Of a stretch of DNA of 33,442 nucleotides, positions 3,509 to 32,242 are shown piece by piece. Within the stretch, counting starts at the first letter, position 1. The number at the start of each line of letters is the position of its first letter. The stretch is from Sedimentisphaerales bacterium (GTDB lineage Bacteria > Planctomycetota > Phycisphaerae > Sedimentisphaerales > Anaerobacaceae). Under the pieces are notes generated by a model that was given only the letters and a program-made list of their open reading frames with translations, did not search any database and was not told the DNA's origin. A program made the translations under genes and the position numbers. The stretch spans positions 1-33,442 of the forward strand of contig JAFGDN010000090.1 in the NCBI GenBank assembly GCA_016932095.1. Reading direction: 5' to 3'.

Positions 3509-5839
3509 ATGAAACGGTCATTGTTTGCAATTTTTGTAATCACTGTTATTTCCATATCTGCGCAAGCCAAATATTCAGGTGGTGCAGGCACATCCGATGA
3601 CCCGTACCAGATAGCTTCAGCCGACGACCTTTTGGCACTGGGTGCAGACACCAACGACTACAATAAATGCTTCATCCAGACCAACGATATCGACCTTGAC
3701 CCCAACCTGTCAGGCAAAAAGGTTTTTACTACAGCGGTAATTGCACCAGACACAAGCAATTCTTCTCCAGATTTCCAAGGAGCTGCCTTTAACGGTGTTT
3801 TCGATGGAACTGGGCATAAAATCAGTAACCTGACCGTAAATACCATCGGCACCGGAAACTCTTATTTGGGTCTTTTTGGTTATGTTTCCGGCGGCGAGAT
3901 AAAAAATCTCGGTATCGAAAATGTATCTATAACAAATGAAAATGAGGCGGTGTTCATTGGCGGACTGGCGGGACAAAGCAACGGAGCTATCAGTAATTGT
4001 TATTCGACAGGCAACATCAGCGGAGACCTTTCGTGCCAGATTGGCGGGCTCGTAGGAAATAACGGCGGCTCCATCAGCAACTGCTATTCGACTGGCAACA
4101 TCAACGGCAGAAATTCCACGTGTCAGCTTGGCGGACTAGTGGGATATTCCTCTGGTGACATTTACGATTGCAATGCTACAGGTACTGTTAAAGGCGGGGA
4201 TTCCTCAATGGAATTGGGGGGACTTGCAGGTTATACAGATGGTAAAGTTTCTCATTGTTTTTCGACGGGATCCACAATTAATGGAAATCTTTCAAGCTAC
4301 ACCGGGGGATTGGTAGGTATGGCTTATGGCAGTATCAATGATTGTTATGCTTCAGGTAACATCACTGGCGGAGACAATTCTCAACAACTCGGAGGGCTGG
4401 TGGGTTATACCGAAGGCGATGTCAATCGCTGCTTTGCCACAGGCGATGTAACTGGCGGATTCGATTCACATTGGCTTGGAGGACTGGTGGCTTATGCTCT
4501 TAACGACATTAAAGATTCCTTTGCTACAGGCGATGTTGTCGGCGGAGACTCTTCGGCAGTATATGGAGGTTTGGTGGGTGTTACAACCCATAGAATTGAC
4601 CGTTGTTTCTCAACAGGCTCGATAACCACCGGGAGTAATTCGCAGTATCTCGGCGGGCTGTTAGGAGCTACCGGCGGCAGCGTAAGTGATTGTTATTCGA
4701 CGGGAAACGTCACCAGCGGGAATGCTTCAGAGACGATTGGCGGGTTGGTGGGATCTTTAGGCAACGGAGTCATCAACAATTGTTACTCCACGGGTATCGT
4801 CAGTAGCGGCGCCTATTCATATCAGCTTGGAGGATTAGTGGGCTATGATTTTCAGGGAGACGGAAAAGTCTACAATTGTTTCTTCCTCGCAACCAGCGGG
4901 CCGGATAATAATTTGGGAGAGCCGTTAACTAATGAGCAGATGAAACAGCAAACCAGTTTCGTCGGCTGGGACTTTACCGGTGAAACTGCCGATGGGCCTA
5001 ATGACATCTGGACAATATGCGAGGGTGTCGATTATCCAAAGCTTGCCTGGTATTTCAACGGCAAGTATCCGCTGGTTATCTCAAAATGTGCTGTTAAATC
5101 GGGCCATACTGACTCGATTTCTATTTCAGGATTTATAGGCGCAACGGCAGATGATTTGAATAACTCAAGCATCATTGTCGTCAGTATAGATTCTGATGAT
5201 ATGAATATGCCCTGTATCCTGACCTTCCCGGCTGACGGCAATACGTTTCAAAAAGGCAAATTCAATTATTCAGGAACAGAGGAGGGCATAAAGAAAACTT
5301 TACGCATAAATACAAGAAGTCATAAATTTTTCTTTTCAGCAAAGAAACTCGACCTGTCAGGTCTGTCTAATCCTGTGACCATTTATATTGAAATCGGAAA
5401 TTATATTGGCAAAGCCGAGATTAACGAGGAAATAATCAACGGCAGAAGACCGACACCCATAAAATTACTGATGGGAATTAAAGACGCAATGAGGATTGAT
5501 AGAGTCAGGGTAAGGCGCCGCTCGACTGACAGATTGTCTATCAAAGGCGGCTTCGCCGTCGAAAACACAGATGTAAATATGGTGGATGTGCCATTATCTA
5601 TTACACTCGATTCACAAACCTTTACCACACCCGCCGGCAGTTTCAAGGCAGGCAATAATAAATTCAAATGCTCAAATGTAATCATCGAAGGTGGTATTGC
5701 CAGCGCACGGTTTAACTACCGAAAAGGCACTTTCTGGCTTGCAATAAGAAATAGCACCATAACGGCCGAATCCGGCGATTGCGATTTTAGAATGGAATTC
5801 GGCGACTTTAGTGAGATTAAAGAAGTTACCCTGCCGTAA
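3509..5839 (+). CDS. secreted GLUG-repeat protein (long paralogue)
   Basis: A 776-residue exported protein. Residues 1-20 are a Sec signal peptide with probable cleavage at AQA|KYSGG. A short N-terminal domain (GTSDDPYQIASADDLLALG) common to GLUG proteins follows. Residues about 150-455 hold ten repeats of 26-29 residues with the pattern GGLVGxxxGxIxxCYSTGxxxG, expected to stack as a beta-solenoid; nearly every repeat keeps one cysteine. After 'NEQMKQQTSFVGWDF' comes a beta-rich C-terminal region (about 510-776) ending VTLP. The same architecture and C-terminal region recur in the protein at 21554-23395. The start has GAGGAG about ten bases upstream. GLUG proteins are often surface or adhesion proteins; a specific ligand cannot be inferred. 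Confidence 0.9.
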   Translation: MKRSLFAIFVITVISISAQAKYSGGAGTSDDPYQIASADDLLALGADTNDYNKCFIQTNDIDLDPNLSGKKVFTTAVIAPDTSNSSPDFQGAAFNGVFDGTGHKISNLTVNTIGTGNSYLGLFGYVSGGEIKNLGIENVSITNENEAVFIGGLAGQSNGAISNCYSTGNISGDLSCQIGGLVGNNGGSISNCYSTGNINGRNSTCQLGGLVGYSSGDIYDCNATGTVKGGDSSMELGGLAGYTDGKVSHCFSTGSTINGNLSSYTGGLVGMAYGSINDCYASGNITGGDNSQQLGGLVGYTEGDVNRCFATGDVTGGFDSHWLGGLVAYALNDIKDSFATGDVVGGDSSAVYGGLVGVTTHRIDRCFSTGSITTGSNSQYLGGLLGATGGSVSDCYSTGNVTSGNASETIGGLVGSLGNGVINNCYSTGIVSSGAYSYQLGGLVGYDFQGDGKVYNCFFLATSGPDNNLGEPLTNEQMKQQTSFVGWDFTGETADGPNDIWTICEGVDYPKLAWYFNGKYPLVISKCAVKSGHTDSISISGFIGATADDLNNSSIIVVSIDSDDMNMPCILTFPADGNTFQKGKFNYSGTEEGIKKTLRINTRSHKFFFSAKKLDLSGLSNPVTIYIEIGNYIGKAEINEEIINGRRPTPIKLLMGIKDAMRIDRVRVRRRSTDRLSIKGGFAVENTDVNMVDVPLSITLDSQTFTTPAGSFKAGNNKFKCSNVIIEGGIASARFNYRKGTFWLAIRNSTITAESGDCDFRMEFGDFSEIKEVTLP

Positions 5840-21553: not shown

Positions 21554-23395
21554 TCAAGGCAGGACAATCTGGCCTGCCTCATAGAACCCGCCGAATTCAA
21601 TGCCCAGATTGACAACGCCGGGGTTTTCGGTAATCTTCATTTTCTTAATCGTCAGCGTGAAGGTGCACCTGCTGAAATTGAAATTGGCGGTGGCGAAGCC
21701 GCCGCCCGCAAGAGCGGCATTTTTACAAACAAAGCCACTCTTGCTCGCTTTGAAGCTACCAATGGGAACCGTGAAGGTCTGCTGCGAGCCGAGGGTTACG
21801 ACGAATTCCTCGCCTGCCATATCCACCATATTTTTAACGGCGAAGCCGCCCTTGACGCTCAACTGGTCGCCGTTCGACTTCTTGCTGCGTTTGACCACGG
21901 ACTTATCGACTCTGAGCATATTTTTGATGCCCATCATCAGGTTTATGGGGATGGGCTTTTTCGGGCCGTTGGCTATCGATTCATCAATTCCACCTATCCC
22001 GTGGAAACTGTCGACAATTATCTCAAAATCCATCGGGCAGGTCAGGCCTGTCAAATCGATTTTGCTCGCCGAAAAAGTAAATTTACTGGTTTTAGTGTCG
22101 TACTTGAAAGAAATCTTCGCCCCGTCTATGCCCCCGGAAAACTTGTATCTGCCGTTCTTGTAGGTCTTTTCATCGATGGGCATCTCAATAATACACGGAT
22201 CCATCTCACCCGACCCAATATTGGCCTTGACAACATTGGTATTTTCAAAATCATCAGCTAAGATGTAGGCTAGGCCGGAAATGGAAATTTTGTCGTTATC
22301 AATCTTGGAGCCGGCGGCAACCTTACATTTGGCCGCCTCAATCACAGTCCGTAACCAGGAAAGTTTGGGATAATCAATACCTTCGTTTATCCACCAGATA
22401 TCTTCGGTGCCGTTGGCGGTCTCGCCGATGAAATCCCAGCCGACGAAACTGGCCTGCTGCTTCATTTGTGTACGGGTTAACGGCTCTCCGTAGCCGTTGT
22501 CAGGCCCGCTGCCGAGAAGAAAATAGCAGTTGTAAACGTTGCTGCTGTTGTTGGCTCCCAAAAGCCCGCCGATGTATTGCCCTCCCCCGCGGATTGTGAC
22601 GTCTCCAGTTGCATAGCAATTGCTAATATCGGTATAAACACAACCGCCCGTCAGCCCGCCTAAAACATCGCCTTTGTGGGCAGTAACGTCTCCTGTTGCA
22701 CAGCAATTGCCGATGCTGCTATCGCCACAAAAACCTATCAGCCCGCCGAGGCCAACCCCTTCACCGCTTGTTACTGTCACACCGCACGACGAAGCGCAAC
22801 TGACCACGCTGCATCCAGAGATCTCTCCTATAAGCCCGCCGATGTTGTATGAACTACTTCCGCTTTCGACGGTCCCTTGCGAGGAACAGTTGGAAATGTT
22901 GGAATATATACAACACCCCGCCAGTGCCCCGAGTTGATACGAGCCGTCCCCGCCGGTTACCCTCGAATTTTTAAGATGAACGCCTTTTATCTCGGCGTTG
23001 AGAACATATCCGAACAGACCAAGCCAATCCGCGCCGTCACAATCGATGGTCATATTGAGAATCTTATGGCCGCCGCCATCGAATTTGCCGGTAAATTCAG
23101 TGTCATCGAATGTAAAGTTCGAACTGTTCGAGTCCGGCGCGATGACGGCTGTGGTGAAAATCTGACCGCCGGGAAGGCCCGGGGCGAGGTCGATATCCGC
23201 GGTCAAAACAAAGCATTGGTCATAATCGTTTGTATCAGCCGACAAGGCAAGCAAGTCGGCGGCCGTGGCGATTTGGTAAGGGTCGCCGGAAGAACCCGAA
23301 CCACCCGAGTATTTGGCGAAACTCGCGCCCGGCAAAACTGAAAATACAGCGAAAAAGACCAAAGCCGATGTTACAAAATTTCTTAAAGTATCCAT
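21554..23395 (-). CDS. secreted GLUG-repeat protein (short paralogue)
   Basis: A 613-residue exported protein, paralogue of the one at 3509-5839. Residues 1-27 are a signal peptide cleaved before KYSGG, as in the paralogue. About five GLUG repeats fill residues 125-300 (GGLIGxxxxSSIGNCCATGDVTA and similar) with extra cysteines (CC and SCASSC) absent from the long form. The linker TRTQMKQQASFVGWDFIGETANG and the C-terminal region (KKPIPINLMMGIKNMLRVDK ... IVLP) match the paralogue well. So the two differ chiefly in the number of repeats. A ribosome site GAGGAG lies five bases before the ATG and a promoter at 23448-23476. Confidence 0.9.
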   Translation of the reverse strand: MDTLRNFVTSALVFFAVFSVLPGASFAKYSGGSGSSGDPYQIATAADLLALSADTNDYDQCFVLTADIDLAPGLPGGQIFTTAVIAPDSNSSNFTFDDTEFTGKFDGGGHKILNMTIDCDGADWLGLFGYVLNAEIKGVHLKNSRVTGGDGSYQLGALAGCCIYSNISNCSSQGTVESGSSSYNIGGLIGEISGCSVVSCASSCGVTVTSGEGVGLGGLIGFCGDSSIGNCCATGDVTAHKGDVLGGLTGGCVYTDISNCYATGDVTIRGGGQYIGGLLGANNSSNVYNCYFLLGSGPDNGYGEPLTRTQMKQQASFVGWDFIGETANGTEDIWWINEGIDYPKLSWLRTVIEAAKCKVAAGSKIDNDKISISGLAYILADDFENTNVVKANIGSGEMDPCIIEMPIDEKTYKNGRYKFSGGIDGAKISFKYDTKTSKFTFSASKIDLTGLTCPMDFEIIVDSFHGIGGIDESIANGPKKPIPINLMMGIKNMLRVDKSVVKRSKKSNGDQLSVKGGFAVKNMVDMAGEEFVVTLGSQQTFTVPIGSFKASKSGFVCKNAALAGGGFATANFNFSRCTFTLTIKKMKITENPGVVNLGIEFGGFYEAGQIVLP

Positions 23396-27124: not shown

Positions 27125-28580
27125 TTTAGAATATAAAGTATTGGTTGGCCTTGAAATACACGTGCAGCTTTGCACGCAGACGAAGATGTTCTGCGGCTGC
27201 GCACTGAGTTTCGCCGAGGAACCAAACAGCAGGGTTTGCCCAGTTTGCCTCGGTATGCCGGGTTCGCTACCGGTGATGAACAAGCAGGCGGTTGAGTTTG
27301 CGATTTTGGCGGGAATGGCGCTGAATTGTCAGATTGCCCAATTTACCAAATGGGACCGCAAAAGCTATTATTATCCAGATTTACCGAAGAATTATCAAAT
27401 AAGTCAATACGATTTACCCTTGGCCATAAATGGTTATATCGAAATACCAACGGATAATGGAATAAAAAAAATCAGAATCATACGAGCACATTTAGAGGAG
27501 GATGCAGGTAAGAATTTGCATACGGCAGGTAATTTTTCACTTGTGGATTTAAATCGCGCGGGAACTCCACTGCTTGAAATTGTTACTGAGCCGGATATGA
27601 ACAGCGCCATCGAGGTGCGGGCGCTTGCGGAGGAACTGCAGCGAATCGTCAGATACTTGGGCGTCTCGGAAGCGGATATGCAAAAGGGGCATATGCGCTT
27701 CGAGCCAAACGTCAACCTTGTTATTACAAGAGCAGGCCAGGAATTCAAAACCCCGATTGTCGAAGTCAAAAACCTCAACAGCTTCAAGGCGCTGGAAAAC
27801 AGCATCAATTATGAAATCGGCAGGCAGCTCGACCGCTTCAACGAAACAGGTGAAGTTATGGAAATGGGCAACAAGAGCACACGCGGCTGGGACGATGCAA
27901 AAGAAGTTACGGTTTTACAGCGGGAAAAAGAGGAGGCCCACGATTATCGCTATTTCCCCGACCCCGACCTTGTGCCGGTTGAGACGAATGAAGATTGGTT
28001 AATCCCGATACAGGAACGACTTTGCGAGCTGCCATTGAAAAAACGGTTGCGTTACGTCAAAGAATACGGCTTAAGCGATTATGACGCCGGGGTATTGACA
28101 AGTGAGCGGGCAACCGCCGACTTTTTTGAGAATGCCGTGAAATCAGGCGGCGAGCCAAAACGTGTTTGCAATCTGCTAACCCAATATTTTCAGAAACGTG
28201 CAAACGAAAGAGGGTGCAATCTGACCGAATTGGGAGTCAAACCGCAACAAGTTGCCGCTTTGGCAAAAATGTTGGAGAAAGAAGAAATCAGTGCAACTGC
28301 TGCCGCTGCAATAAGCGATGCGGTTGTCCTATCTGAAGATTTGGACCCCGGTAAGTATGCTCAGGAACACAACCTGTTGCAAAAAAGCGACGCAGGTGAG
28401 CTTGAGGCAATTGTCGAGGAGGTCATTAAGGCCAATCCGCAGGCGGTTGAGGATTTCAAGGCGGGCGGCAAAAAGAGCGGCAAAGCGAAGGGCTTTTTGT
28501 TAGGCCAGGTTATGCAAAAAACAAAAGGCAGGGCAAATCCCAAAGTGGCCGCGGAAATCCTTGACAGGAAACTTGCCTGA
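27117..28580 (+). CDS. gatB: Asp-tRNA(Asn)/Glu-tRNA(Gln) amidotransferase subunit B
   Basis: A 487-residue subunit that binds the misacylated tRNA, phosphorylates its side chain with ATP and accepts ammonia from GatA. The N-terminus YKVLVGLEIHVQLCTQTKMFCGC is canonical; the zinc ligands are C-x-C (FCGC) and C-x2-C (VCPVC). The Yqey-like tail domain (about 340-487) ends GRANPKVAAEILDRKL, typical of a tRNA-binding helical tail. It starts inside the last codons of gatA. No terminator hairpin is evident after it. Confidence 0.97.
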   Translation: MGNLEYKVLVGLEIHVQLCTQTKMFCGCALSFAEEPNSRVCPVCLGMPGSLPVMNKQAVEFAILAGMALNCQIAQFTKWDRKSYYYPDLPKNYQISQYDLPLAINGYIEIPTDNGIKKIRIIRAHLEEDAGKNLHTAGNFSLVDLNRAGTPLLEIVTEPDMNSAIEVRALAEELQRIVRYLGVSEADMQKGHMRFEPNVNLVITRAGQEFKTPIVEVKNLNSFKALENSINYEIGRQLDRFNETGEVMEMGNKSTRGWDDAKEVTVLQREKEEAHDYRYFPDPDLVPVETNEDWLIPIQERLCELPLKKRLRYVKEYGLSDYDAGVLTSERATADFFENAVKSGGEPKRVCNLLTQYFQKRANERGCNLTELGVKPQQVAALAKMLEKEEISATAAAAISDAVVLSEDLDPGKYAQEHNLLQKSDAGELEAIVEEVIKANPQAVEDFKAGGKKSGKAKGFLLGQVMQKTKGRANPKVAAEILDRKLA

Positions 28581-28668
28581 TATTTATAATAAGATGTTTG
28601 TCGCTGATTTACAAATAAATCATCACTAAAAAACAGGATTTTAAATATCTCCACAAATTTTTCTGGAC

Positions 28669-28842: not shown

Positions 28843-28903
28843 ATTATCGGTTTACATAATTGTGATTAAAATCTGTTTATATTTAGATGACAGATGGAGA
28901 TGA
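28718..28903 (+). CDS. possible small protein ahead of the histidine kinase
   Basis: A 61-residue frame, MPISVCNFGMQLWRMSNGGV... to LDDRWR, of no known family. Support comes from a good ribosome site (GGGAG, seven bases before ATG) and from the stop, which lies four bases before the preferred kinase start, as in a coupled operon. The amino acid composition includes a hydrophobic run (SVYIIVIKICLYL). It may also be a chance frame, as it is short and has no recognised relatives. Confidence 0.35.
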   Translation: MPISVCNFGMQLWRMSNGGVGEGSLFVYLNGVEHINQRFAPGLSVYIIVIKICLYLDDRWR

Positions 28904-28907
28904 TACC

Positions 28908-31457
28908 ATGCCCAGAGCAGGGAAAAGCAGTGAGTTGAAAAAACCGGTTAGAAAAGGACAAAAACAATCGGTTAAGATAAAGCTGCTTCGCCGGCAGGCA
29001 CAAAAGAAGACGGCCGATATCCCCGCCGCTCAAATCAAAACATGGTTCGTAGATATTCTGCGGAACATGAGCGATTTGATATGGGAGGTCGATGAGAACG
29101 GCGTTTTCACCTGGTGCACGGGCGCTGCCGAAGACATTTTCGGCGTAACCAGCGGGGAATTGACAGGTAAAAGCTTGTTTGATTTTATGGATGCCGGAGA
29201 AGCACAGCGGGCGAAAAACCTTTTCGAGGACAGAGCCATTCGGAAAAAACCCGTTAAAGATGTAGAAGTGTGCCTTGAAGACAGGCAGGGAAAACGACAC
29301 TGGTTATATATAAACGGCGTTCCCGTAATCGACAACAAAGGACTGCTGAAAGGTTACTCAGGCATATACAGAGACATCACCACACTCAAAAAAGCCGAGG
29401 AGTCGCTGCGTGAAAGCGAGCTTAAATTCAGAACCCTGGCGGACGAGGCGTTCAATGGCGTCGCGATACACGACGGCCAAAGGATAATCGAGATAAATAA
29501 AGCTTTCGGCCTGATGTGGGGCTACGACACCGCGGAAGCCGCCGGTATGAAAATTGATGAATTCTTCGCTCCTGAATGCCGTGCGGATATGAAAAGTAAG
29601 GTCCAATCCGATTATGACAAACCGTATGTAACAACCGCGGTCAGAAAGAACGGGACAAGATTCCGGCTGGAAGTAACGGGCAAATTCATAACATACAAAG
29701 GCCAAAAGGTGCGTATTGCGACAGTTAGAGATATAACCGAACAGAGCACAGTGGAGAACGCATTACAGGAGAGTGAAGAACGGCTAAAGACGGCTGTGGA
29801 CGCGGCGGAACTCGGAATATGGGACTGGAACCTGGTCAGCGGTCAAATCGTCTGGGCAGGTCATAATGCCCGGCTGTTCGGCTACAAAAAGGGAGAGTTT
29901 GACGGACGCTACGAGACGTTCGAAAAAAGAATTCACCCGGATGACATCGCCGGATTGAACGCGGCAATTAAAAAAGCCAAAAAAGAAAAATCGGAATATT
30001 TCCGTGAATATCGCGTGATTTGGCCCGACGGGACGCTGCGCTGGATAGCCGGCAGGGGCCGGTTCATCTATGACGCGACCGGTCGAGCAGTCAGAATGGT
30101 CGGCGCCGCCCAGGATATCACTATGCATAAAAGCATAGAAGAAAGCTTAAGAAAAGAACGGCAGGAAATCAGGACCATTATCGACTCTTTACCAATAATA
30201 GTTTTTTATAAAGATAAAAAAGGAAGATTTGTGCGCGTCAACAAGACACTTGCTGAATCGCTGAACATACCCGAAGAAAAATTTTTGGGAAAAACCGTTT
30301 TTGACCTTTATTCCGCCAAGATTGCACAAGGTATGACAAAAGACGACAACGAGGTTTTTAATTCAGGACAACCCAAGCTCAACATAATCGAGCAATATGA
30401 ATCCGCAAGAGGCCCAAGATGGGTGCAGACAGATAAGTTTCCGATTTTCGATAAAGACGGCGTTCTGGTTGGTCTAGTTGGTTTTGCCCAAGACATCACT
30501 GAGCGCAAACAGGCTGAGGAGGCACTGATAAAGGCAGAGAATGAAAAAGCGACAATTTTAAATACCATGTCGGAACTTGTGGCATATCAGGATGCCGAAC
30601 ACAGAATCATATGGGCAAACAGAGCTGCGGGTGAATCGGCCGGTTCCGCTGCGGAAGAGCTGCTTGGACGTTATTGTTATGAGGTATGGCAAGGACGCAA
30701 CAAGCCCTGCGTAAATTGTCCTGTTGAAAAGGCGTGGAAAACCGGCCGATTAGAAACCGAAGCAATTCACAGTCCAGATGGCAGAGTGTGGTCTATACGT
30801 GCTAATCCCGTCAAAAATAAAACGGGCGATGTCGTAGGGGTGGTAGAGATAACATCAGACATCACCGAGCGCAAGCAGGCGGAACACAAGCTCCTTGAGT
30901 ATCAAAAACAGCTCAAGCGTCTGGCGGCGCAATTGGCTTTGACCGAGGAGCGGGAGCGCCGACGAATAGCCGGCGAACTCCACGACCACGTAGGCCAGTC
31001 GCTTGCACTGGCAAAAATCAAAATCGATACACTGCACGCCTCGGCGACGTCTCAGCCGTTGCCCCAGGCCCTCGAAGATATAAGCGGCTCGCTTGAAAAG
31101 GCAATCCAAGAAACAAGGTCGCTGACGTTTGACCTTAGCAACCCGATACTTTATGAATTGGGATTTGAGGCGGCAGTCGCTGAATGGCTCAACGAACACG
31201 TCAAACCAAAATACGGCATCTCAATCGAGTTTAACGCGGACGACAATCCCAAACCCCTCAACGACGATATGAAAGTAATGATATTCAGAAACGTCCGCGA
31301 GCTGCTTATTAATATAATCAAGTATGCAAAGGCCGACAAGGTCAAGGTTTCGATTAGCAGAATCGACAATTCAATGCAGGTTCTGGTCGAAGACAACGGC
31401 GTCGGCTTCGACCCGGCAGAAGTGAAAAAGACGTCCGGAAAAAAGGAAAAATTCTGA
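28908..31457 (+). CDS. multi-PAS sensor histidine kinase, cut short by an in-frame TGA
   Basis: An 849-residue cytoplasmic kinase with five PAS domains (about 50-165, 174-286, 292-414, 421-541, 548-665). The fifth has clustered cysteines (GRNKPCVNCPVEKA) that might bind a metal or cofactor. A HisKA_3 domain follows, with the phospho-acceptor His692 in GELHDHVGQSLA, then a HATPase domain with N box FRNVRELLINIIKYAKA and G1 box DNGVGFD. No membrane segment is present. At codon 850 a TGA replaces the first residue of the G2 box; the frame goes on at 31458-31586. The ATG at 28908 has GGAG eight bases upstream; ATG at 28887 is an alternative. Without the G2 box ATP binding should be impaired. It is paired with the regulator downstream. 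Confidence 0.8.
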   Translation: MPRAGKSSELKKPVRKGQKQSVKIKLLRRQAQKKTADIPAAQIKTWFVDILRNMSDLIWEVDENGVFTWCTGAAEDIFGVTSGELTGKSLFDFMDAGEAQRAKNLFEDRAIRKKPVKDVEVCLEDRQGKRHWLYINGVPVIDNKGLLKGYSGIYRDITTLKKAEESLRESELKFRTLADEAFNGVAIHDGQRIIEINKAFGLMWGYDTAEAAGMKIDEFFAPECRADMKSKVQSDYDKPYVTTAVRKNGTRFRLEVTGKFITYKGQKVRIATVRDITEQSTVENALQESEERLKTAVDAAELGIWDWNLVSGQIVWAGHNARLFGYKKGEFDGRYETFEKRIHPDDIAGLNAAIKKAKKEKSEYFREYRVIWPDGTLRWIAGRGRFIYDATGRAVRMVGAAQDITMHKSIEESLRKERQEIRTIIDSLPIIVFYKDKKGRFVRVNKTLAESLNIPEEKFLGKTVFDLYSAKIAQGMTKDDNEVFNSGQPKLNIIEQYESARGPRWVQTDKFPIFDKDGVLVGLVGFAQDITERKQAEEALIKAENEKATILNTMSELVAYQDAEHRIIWANRAAGESAGSAAEELLGRYCYEVWQGRNKPCVNCPVEKAWKTGRLETEAIHSPDGRVWSIRANPVKNKTGDVVGVVEITSDITERKQAEHKLLEYQKQLKRLAAQLALTEERERRRIAGELHDHVGQSLALAKIKIDTLHASATSQPLPQALEDISGSLEKAIQETRSLTFDLSNPILYELGFEAAVAEWLNEHVKPKYGISIEFNADDNPKPLNDDMKVMIFRNVRELLINIIKYAKADKVKVSISRIDNSMQVLVEDNGVGFDPAEVKKTSGKKEKF

Positions 31458-31586
31458 TTATTCAGCACACGCGAAAGCATCGAACAGTTAGGCGGACGTT
31501 TCGAAATTGCTTCGAAACCAGGCGCCGGCTGCAGGGCCGTAATGACAGTTCCTTTGAAACAACGGGACCTCGAAAAGGAGGAATAA
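31458..31586 (+). pseudogene. detached C-terminal end of the histidine kinase
   Basis: After the TGA at 31455-31457 the same frame continues for 42 codons, LFSTRESIEQLGGRFEIASK..., ending VPLKQRDLEKEE and TAA at 31584-31586. This is exactly the G2 box and last strands of HATPase domains, which usually read F-G-L-(F/Y)-S-x-R-E-R-I-E-x-L-G-G. Only one residue, the glycine, is missing, and GGA to TGA is a single base change. The TAA is two bases before the response regulator ATG, the expected place for the end of a coupled kinase gene. Confidence 0.85.
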
Positions 31587-31588
31587 TT

Positions 31589-32242
31589 ATGACCGTAAAA
31601 ATTTTACTGGCTGACGACCACGCGATTATCCGCCAGGGCCTATGTGCTCTTCTGGAGAAACACCCCGATTTTGAGGTGGTAGGCGCCGTCGAAAATGGGC
31701 TAAAAGCAATCGAGCTTGTCGGAGAGCTTAAACCAAATATTGTGATTATGGACGTAACTATGCCCAACCTCAACGGCATCGACGCTGCCCGCAGGATACT
31801 TGAGAAATCGCGCAGTGTAAAAATCATAGCGCTATCGATGCATTCGAATCGACGGTTCGTGGCTGAAATGCTCGAGGCGGGCGCACTGGCTTATATCCTG
31901 AAAGAATGTCTGTTCGACGAGCTGGTCGAGGCGATAAGAACTGTCTTAAACGGAAGAATCTACCTGAGCCCAAAAATCACGGGCATCGTCGTCGATGATT
32001 ATATCAAACGTATGTCGCCCGAATATCAGCAGGAAACAGTCCCCCTGACCGAACGAGAACGGGAGGTCCTACAGCTTTTAGCCGAGGGTAAAAGCACAAA
32101 ACAGATTGCCCTGCGGCTTCACGTCAGTGATAAAACCATCGAATCAAACAGGCGAAATATTATGGAAAAGCTTCAAATTCACAGTATAGCCGAGCTTACA
32201 AAATACGCCGTCCGCGAGGGAATAACGCCTTTAGATTCATAG
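31589..32242 (+). CDS. NarL/FixJ-family response regulator
   Basis: A 217-residue transcription factor. The receiver domain (about 3-120) has the acidic pocket at ADDH and the phospho-acceptor Asp55 in IVIMDVTMPNLNG, the switch Ser/Thr in IIALSMHSN and the Lys in AYILKEC. A LuxR-type helix-turn-helix follows (about 152-212: LTEREREVLQLLAEGKSTKQIALRLHVSDKTIESNRRNIMEKL). A strong ribosome site, AAGGAGG, lies nine bases before the ATG and within the end of the kinase gene, so the pair is translationally coupled. If the kinase is dead, this regulator may depend on other phosphate donors. No target promoter is known. Confidence 0.95.
   Translation: MTVKILLADDHAIIRQGLCALLEKHPDFEVVGAVENGLKAIELVGELKPNIVIMDVTMPNLNGIDAARRILEKSRSVKIIALSMHSNRRFVAEMLEAGALAYILKECLFDELVEAIRTVLNGRIYLSPKITGIVVDDYIKRMSPEYQQETVPLTEREREVLQLLAEGKSTKQIALRLHVSDKTIESNRRNIMEKLQIHSIAELTKYAVREGITPLDS

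Follow-up and report, generated by a model that had tools for sequence, protein, structure and literature searches.

A probable recent nonsense substitution truncating an otherwise intact sensor histidine kinase at an invariant glycine codon in a Sedimentisphaerales bacterium

The locus raised the question of why the reading frame of a sensor histidine kinase carries a TGA at a position where its homologues encode glycine: by a mutation that disabled the kinase, by a wrong base in the consensus, or as a stop that is bypassed during translation. The window, that is, the whole stretch of DNA analysed (33,442 nucleotides), is one whole contig of a 94-contig draft genome. The features on which the analysis rests were as follows.

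28887 to 31457, + strand: open reading frame of the truncated sensor histidine kinase (856 amino acids), with PAS, HisKA_3 and the N-terminal half of HATPase_c, ending at the TGA.
28908, + strand: ATG, an alternative possible start of the kinase.
31439 to 31445, + strand: in-frame heptamer A AAA AAG, separated from the TGA by 9 bases; from it the -1 frame continues without a stop into the response regulator.
31455 to 31457, + strand: in-frame TGA at the glycine column (glycine in all 41 of the other homologues inspected).
31458 to 31586, + strand: rest of the kinase frame (42 sense codons and TAA), encoding the end of HATPase_c and matching both the Pfam profile and the orthologues.
31573 to 31580, + strand: putative ribosome-binding site (Shine-Dalgarno-like AAGGAGG) within the final codons of the kinase frame, preceding the regulator's ATG at 31589.
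31589 to 32242, + strand: intact NarL-type response regulator (217 amino acids), with a receiver domain and a LuxR/GerE helix-turn-helix.

The kinase frame consisted of DNGVGFDPAEVKKTSGKKEKF, the TGA at 31455-31457, then LFSTRESIEQLGGRFEIASKPGAGCRAVMTVPLKQRDLEKEE and a TAA at 31584-31586; two bases separated this TAA from the response regulator ATG at 31589, as the preliminary description had reported. The frame length of 892 codons given there was correct when counted from the ATG at 28908; counted from the ATG at 28887 it was 899 codons, in which the TGA was the sole internal stop. Pfam detected PAS domains, HisKA_3 and HATPase_c in the truncated kinase, with HisKA_3 (PF07730) at 2.4e-12 and the conserved histidine in ELHDHVGQ. 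HATPase_c scored 29.8 bits under the standard code (profile positions 7-56 of 111), and 54.0 bits with the TGA read through (7-110 of 111). Under the standard code the kinase therefore lacked a complete HATPase_c with N, G1 and G2 motifs. The match almost to the profile end upheld the claim that the domain after the TGA is conserved; the accompanying claim that only the glycine is lost did not hold, as the standard code loses 43 residues, the glycine included. The kinase resembled the HisKA_3/HATPase_c group (NarX, NarQ, UhpB, DesK, VraS) in its PAS sensors, its HisKA_3 motif, its N and G1 motifs and the NarL-type partner regulator adjacent to it, and differed from that group in that a TGA interrupted its ATP-binding domain at the G2 glycine.

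A search of the organism's own genome and 60 relatives returned homologues in 54 of the 61 genomes. Glycine, encoded by GGN, stood at the TGA column in 35 of 35 homologues aligned with the window (2 paralogues from the own genome, 29 homologues from relatives and 4 from genome_contigs), and also in 6 further distinct homologues, which had been picked for a stop reported inside the match or nearby. The placement of the TGA at the G2-box glycine of a histidine kinase was thereby confirmed; the description of this glycine needed one correction, because in the genus KxxF precedes it, which makes it the single conserved glycine of the G2 box (the G of 'FGL') and not the first of several. Together with the rise in the HATPase_c score on read-through, the glycine in every homologue inspected places the frame downstream of the TGA beyond chance. 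The nearest orthologues had GGG, GGG, GGA and GGG at the site; the GGA, in orthologue L007, is one base from TGA. A stop recurring in the family at this column was rejected, since the fetched homologues with in-match stops all had glycine there. Where the stops of these fetched homologues could be placed, they coincided with the usual end of the HATPase_c domain or were close to it.

The order gatB, kinase, response regulator and plsY was found in two loci of the same genus (L108 and L110). A third locus of the genus (L109) had gatB, kinase and response regulator, plsY being unmatched in the stretch examined, and a locus of another genus (L111) had the end of gatB, the kinase, the response regulator and plsY. 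At L111 (G032 C103, 9081-9152) just the last 24 GatB residues were matched upstream of the kinase, in a stretch long enough for a whole gatB. The kinase was uninterrupted in all four syntenic orthologues, so the comparison with relatives for which the preliminary description had called excluded a family sharing the same short protein. The nearest kinase had 64% identity over the 228-residue query. A plasmid search returned distant kinases only, with at most 35% identity among the matches listed. The same genome also contained two intact paralogous kinases, at C80:14886-15524 (46% identity to the kinase end) and C41:9549-10202 (44%).

The response regulator was intact (Response_reg 3.3e-27, GerE 2.2e-20) and shared 71-74% identity with those encoded next to the orthologous kinases. 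The AAGGAGG ahead of its ATG would, to judge from its sequence and position, let it be translated on its own; the regulator could then still be made, and could be phosphorylated from elsewhere. The paralogues at C80 and C41 might act on the orphaned regulator. Upstream, a perfect 12-of-12 sigma-70 consensus was observed at window positions 28561-28590 (TTGACA, an 18-base spacer and TATAAT); it overlaps the end of gatB and precedes the kinase start by about 300 bases. Elsewhere in the window, two similar large predicted proteins with repeated GGLVG/NCYATG-type units were found at 3509-5839 and 21554-23395; both start near the same 'AKYSGG.G..DPYQIA' stretch.

Production of a full-length kinase by read-through or recoding of the UGA, as glycine, selenocysteine or tryptophan, would agree with the conservation of the downstream frame to its end, but is extremely improbable on the other evidence from the genome and its relatives. 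Release factor 2 (prfB) was present (485.6 bits, over the cut-off), and TGA ended 38% of the long open reading frames sampled (58 TGA, 75 TAA and 19 TAG among 152 long non-overlapping frames in 324 kb of the assembly). None of the 44 tRNA matches checked had a UCA anticodon; the glycine tRNAs had UCC, CCC and GCC and tryptophan CCA only, and two tRNAs left uncalled by ARAGORN were assigned by visual inspection to Leu(CAA) and Ser(GGA). A UGA=Gly code, wholesale or local, was rejected on the basis of release factor 2, this tRNA set and the use of TGA as a terminator, in line with the earlier view that a code change is unlikely. In bacteria, such a code is reported in Gracilibacteria and Absconditabacteria (PMC8629427, PMC4032931), which the present locus resembles in a UGA standing at a glycine position and from which it differs in the presence of release factor 2, the common use of TGA as a terminator and the failure to find a tRNA-Gly(UCA). 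Selenocysteine was rejected as well: all matches to tRNA-Sec and SelB were below the family cut-offs in the own genome and in the genus (4 genomes), and the RNA after the UGA gave no hairpin signal, being no more structured than shuffled sequences (z -0.37). No relative had a stop at the site. A tRNA-Trp acting as a leaky reader of the UGA was likewise set aside, the sole tRNA-Trp having the anticodon CCA. Ordinary near-cognate misreading of UGA inserts mainly tryptophan, and such insertion would leave the invariant glycine unrestored. The recoding branch of the preliminary description was accordingly not sustained. A -1 frameshift at the A AAA AAG heptamer, which would bypass the TGA and fuse the truncated kinase to the response regulator, was given very low probability. 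The heptamer is of the canonical dnaX type, is in the right phase (codon context GGA AAA AAG), and its -1 frame runs without a stop across a 48-residue linker, whose last residues are GII, and on into the regulator (MTVKILLADD). Both properties are infrequent: 20 in-frame A AAA AAG occurred in the 79,205 codons of the sample, and a -1 frame was open over 46 codons at just 12% of long-gene positions. The heptamer was nevertheless found in none of the 12 homologues read, whose -1 frames close after 1-21 codons, and the Lys-Lys codons at this spot are conserved in the genus, so that the heptamer needs little beyond a silent change. Downstream structure was not significant (z -0.64) and no clear Shine-Dalgarno-like stimulator lay upstream; the site thus shared with dnaX-type sites the in-phase heptamer and the open -1 frame, and differed from them in stimulatory structure and conservation. 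Even a fusion protein would have neither the G2 box nor the last part of the ATP-binding domain. Since the heptamer is not conserved in relatives and its product would have no G2 box, its position before the TGA is probably a coincidence noticed after the fact. A working switch built of the TGA and the heptamer, yielding mostly a kinase-dead sensor and in a fraction of cases a sensor-regulator fusion, was likewise judged very improbable; if true, a system of two genes would have become one hybrid protein that has no kinase domain. A literature search for kinase-regulator fusions made by frameshift returned nothing relevant.

The codons after the TGA appeared to be under selection. In this stretch, differences from the closest orthologue (L005) still fell most often at the third codon position (6, 6 and 16 at codon positions 1, 2 and 3), although these numbers are small. 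Amino-acid identity to the closest orthologue was 26/36 after the TGA and 114/185 before it, and identity to the orthologues of the genus after the TGA (24-26 of 36-41 residues) was like that before. Stop-creating changes made up 4.6% of the single-base changes in the 899-codon frame, so that at a neutral divergence of about 0.024 substitutions per site about 3 more stops should have arisen. The lack of a second stop in 899 codons and the selected appearance of the codons after the TGA indicate that the lesion is either very recent or a consensus error. In the latter case a true glycine codon would have had one base miscalled or misassembled, or the base of a minority strain would have been taken; this is the less probable of the two explanations. 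It is favored by the single base that separates the TGA from the GGA of L007, by surroundings that are all intact and look selected, and by the draft state of the genome; a wrong consensus base would give the same picture as a real mutation. Against it, the kinase TGA was the one internal stop among the HATPase_c (n = 27) and ABC (n = 23) matches of the genome, leaving 49 other matches without any. No other clear stop-broken long frame was seen in 324 kb, window included, in a scan that was ab initio, by eye and insensitive, with a codon score that does not flag the kinase site; consecutive genes in the same frame were seen in it. The absence of other stops from the domain matches and from the scan indicates that such errors are not common in this assembly, and an error-ridden assembly was rejected on the same 50 conserved domain matches and 324 kb. 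A recent nonsense substitution at the invariant glycine codon, truncating an otherwise intact and conserved kinase, is regarded as the probable explanation of the TGA, and we infer a genuine change of recent date and not one wrong base of the consensus.

With a nonsense substitution, a NarX/DesK (HisKA_3)-type kinase located between gatB and a NarL-type regulator would have been cut by a single change. Translation would end at the TGA, and the product would keep the PAS sensors and the phospho-acceptor helix. Without the G2 glycine and the remaining ATP-binding domain, it would not be expected to autophosphorylate, and the regulator, retaining its own putative ribosome-binding site, would stay translatable. 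Alanine at G2-box glycines abolishes autophosphorylation in Hik2 and in EnvZ, ArcB, EvgS and BarA (PMC4751278, PMC4734776). Because the protein stops short of the G2 glycine and has none of the residues beyond it, its kinase activity should be lost.

The locus is an ordinary nonsense lesion or an artefact. It is like an ordinary single-lesion pseudogene in having one disabling substitution in a gene that is otherwise intact and syntenic, with the distinction that the substitution, read from one draft assembly, may not be real or fixed. Draft genomes often contain isolated nonsense lesions, whether real or only called, and this one is of little importance as such. It is of use as an illustration: once the code, the tRNAs and the relatives have been checked, a stop in place of an invariant residue is no evidence of recoding. 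If the lesion is real, a two-component system that the relatives keep no longer signals in this lineage.
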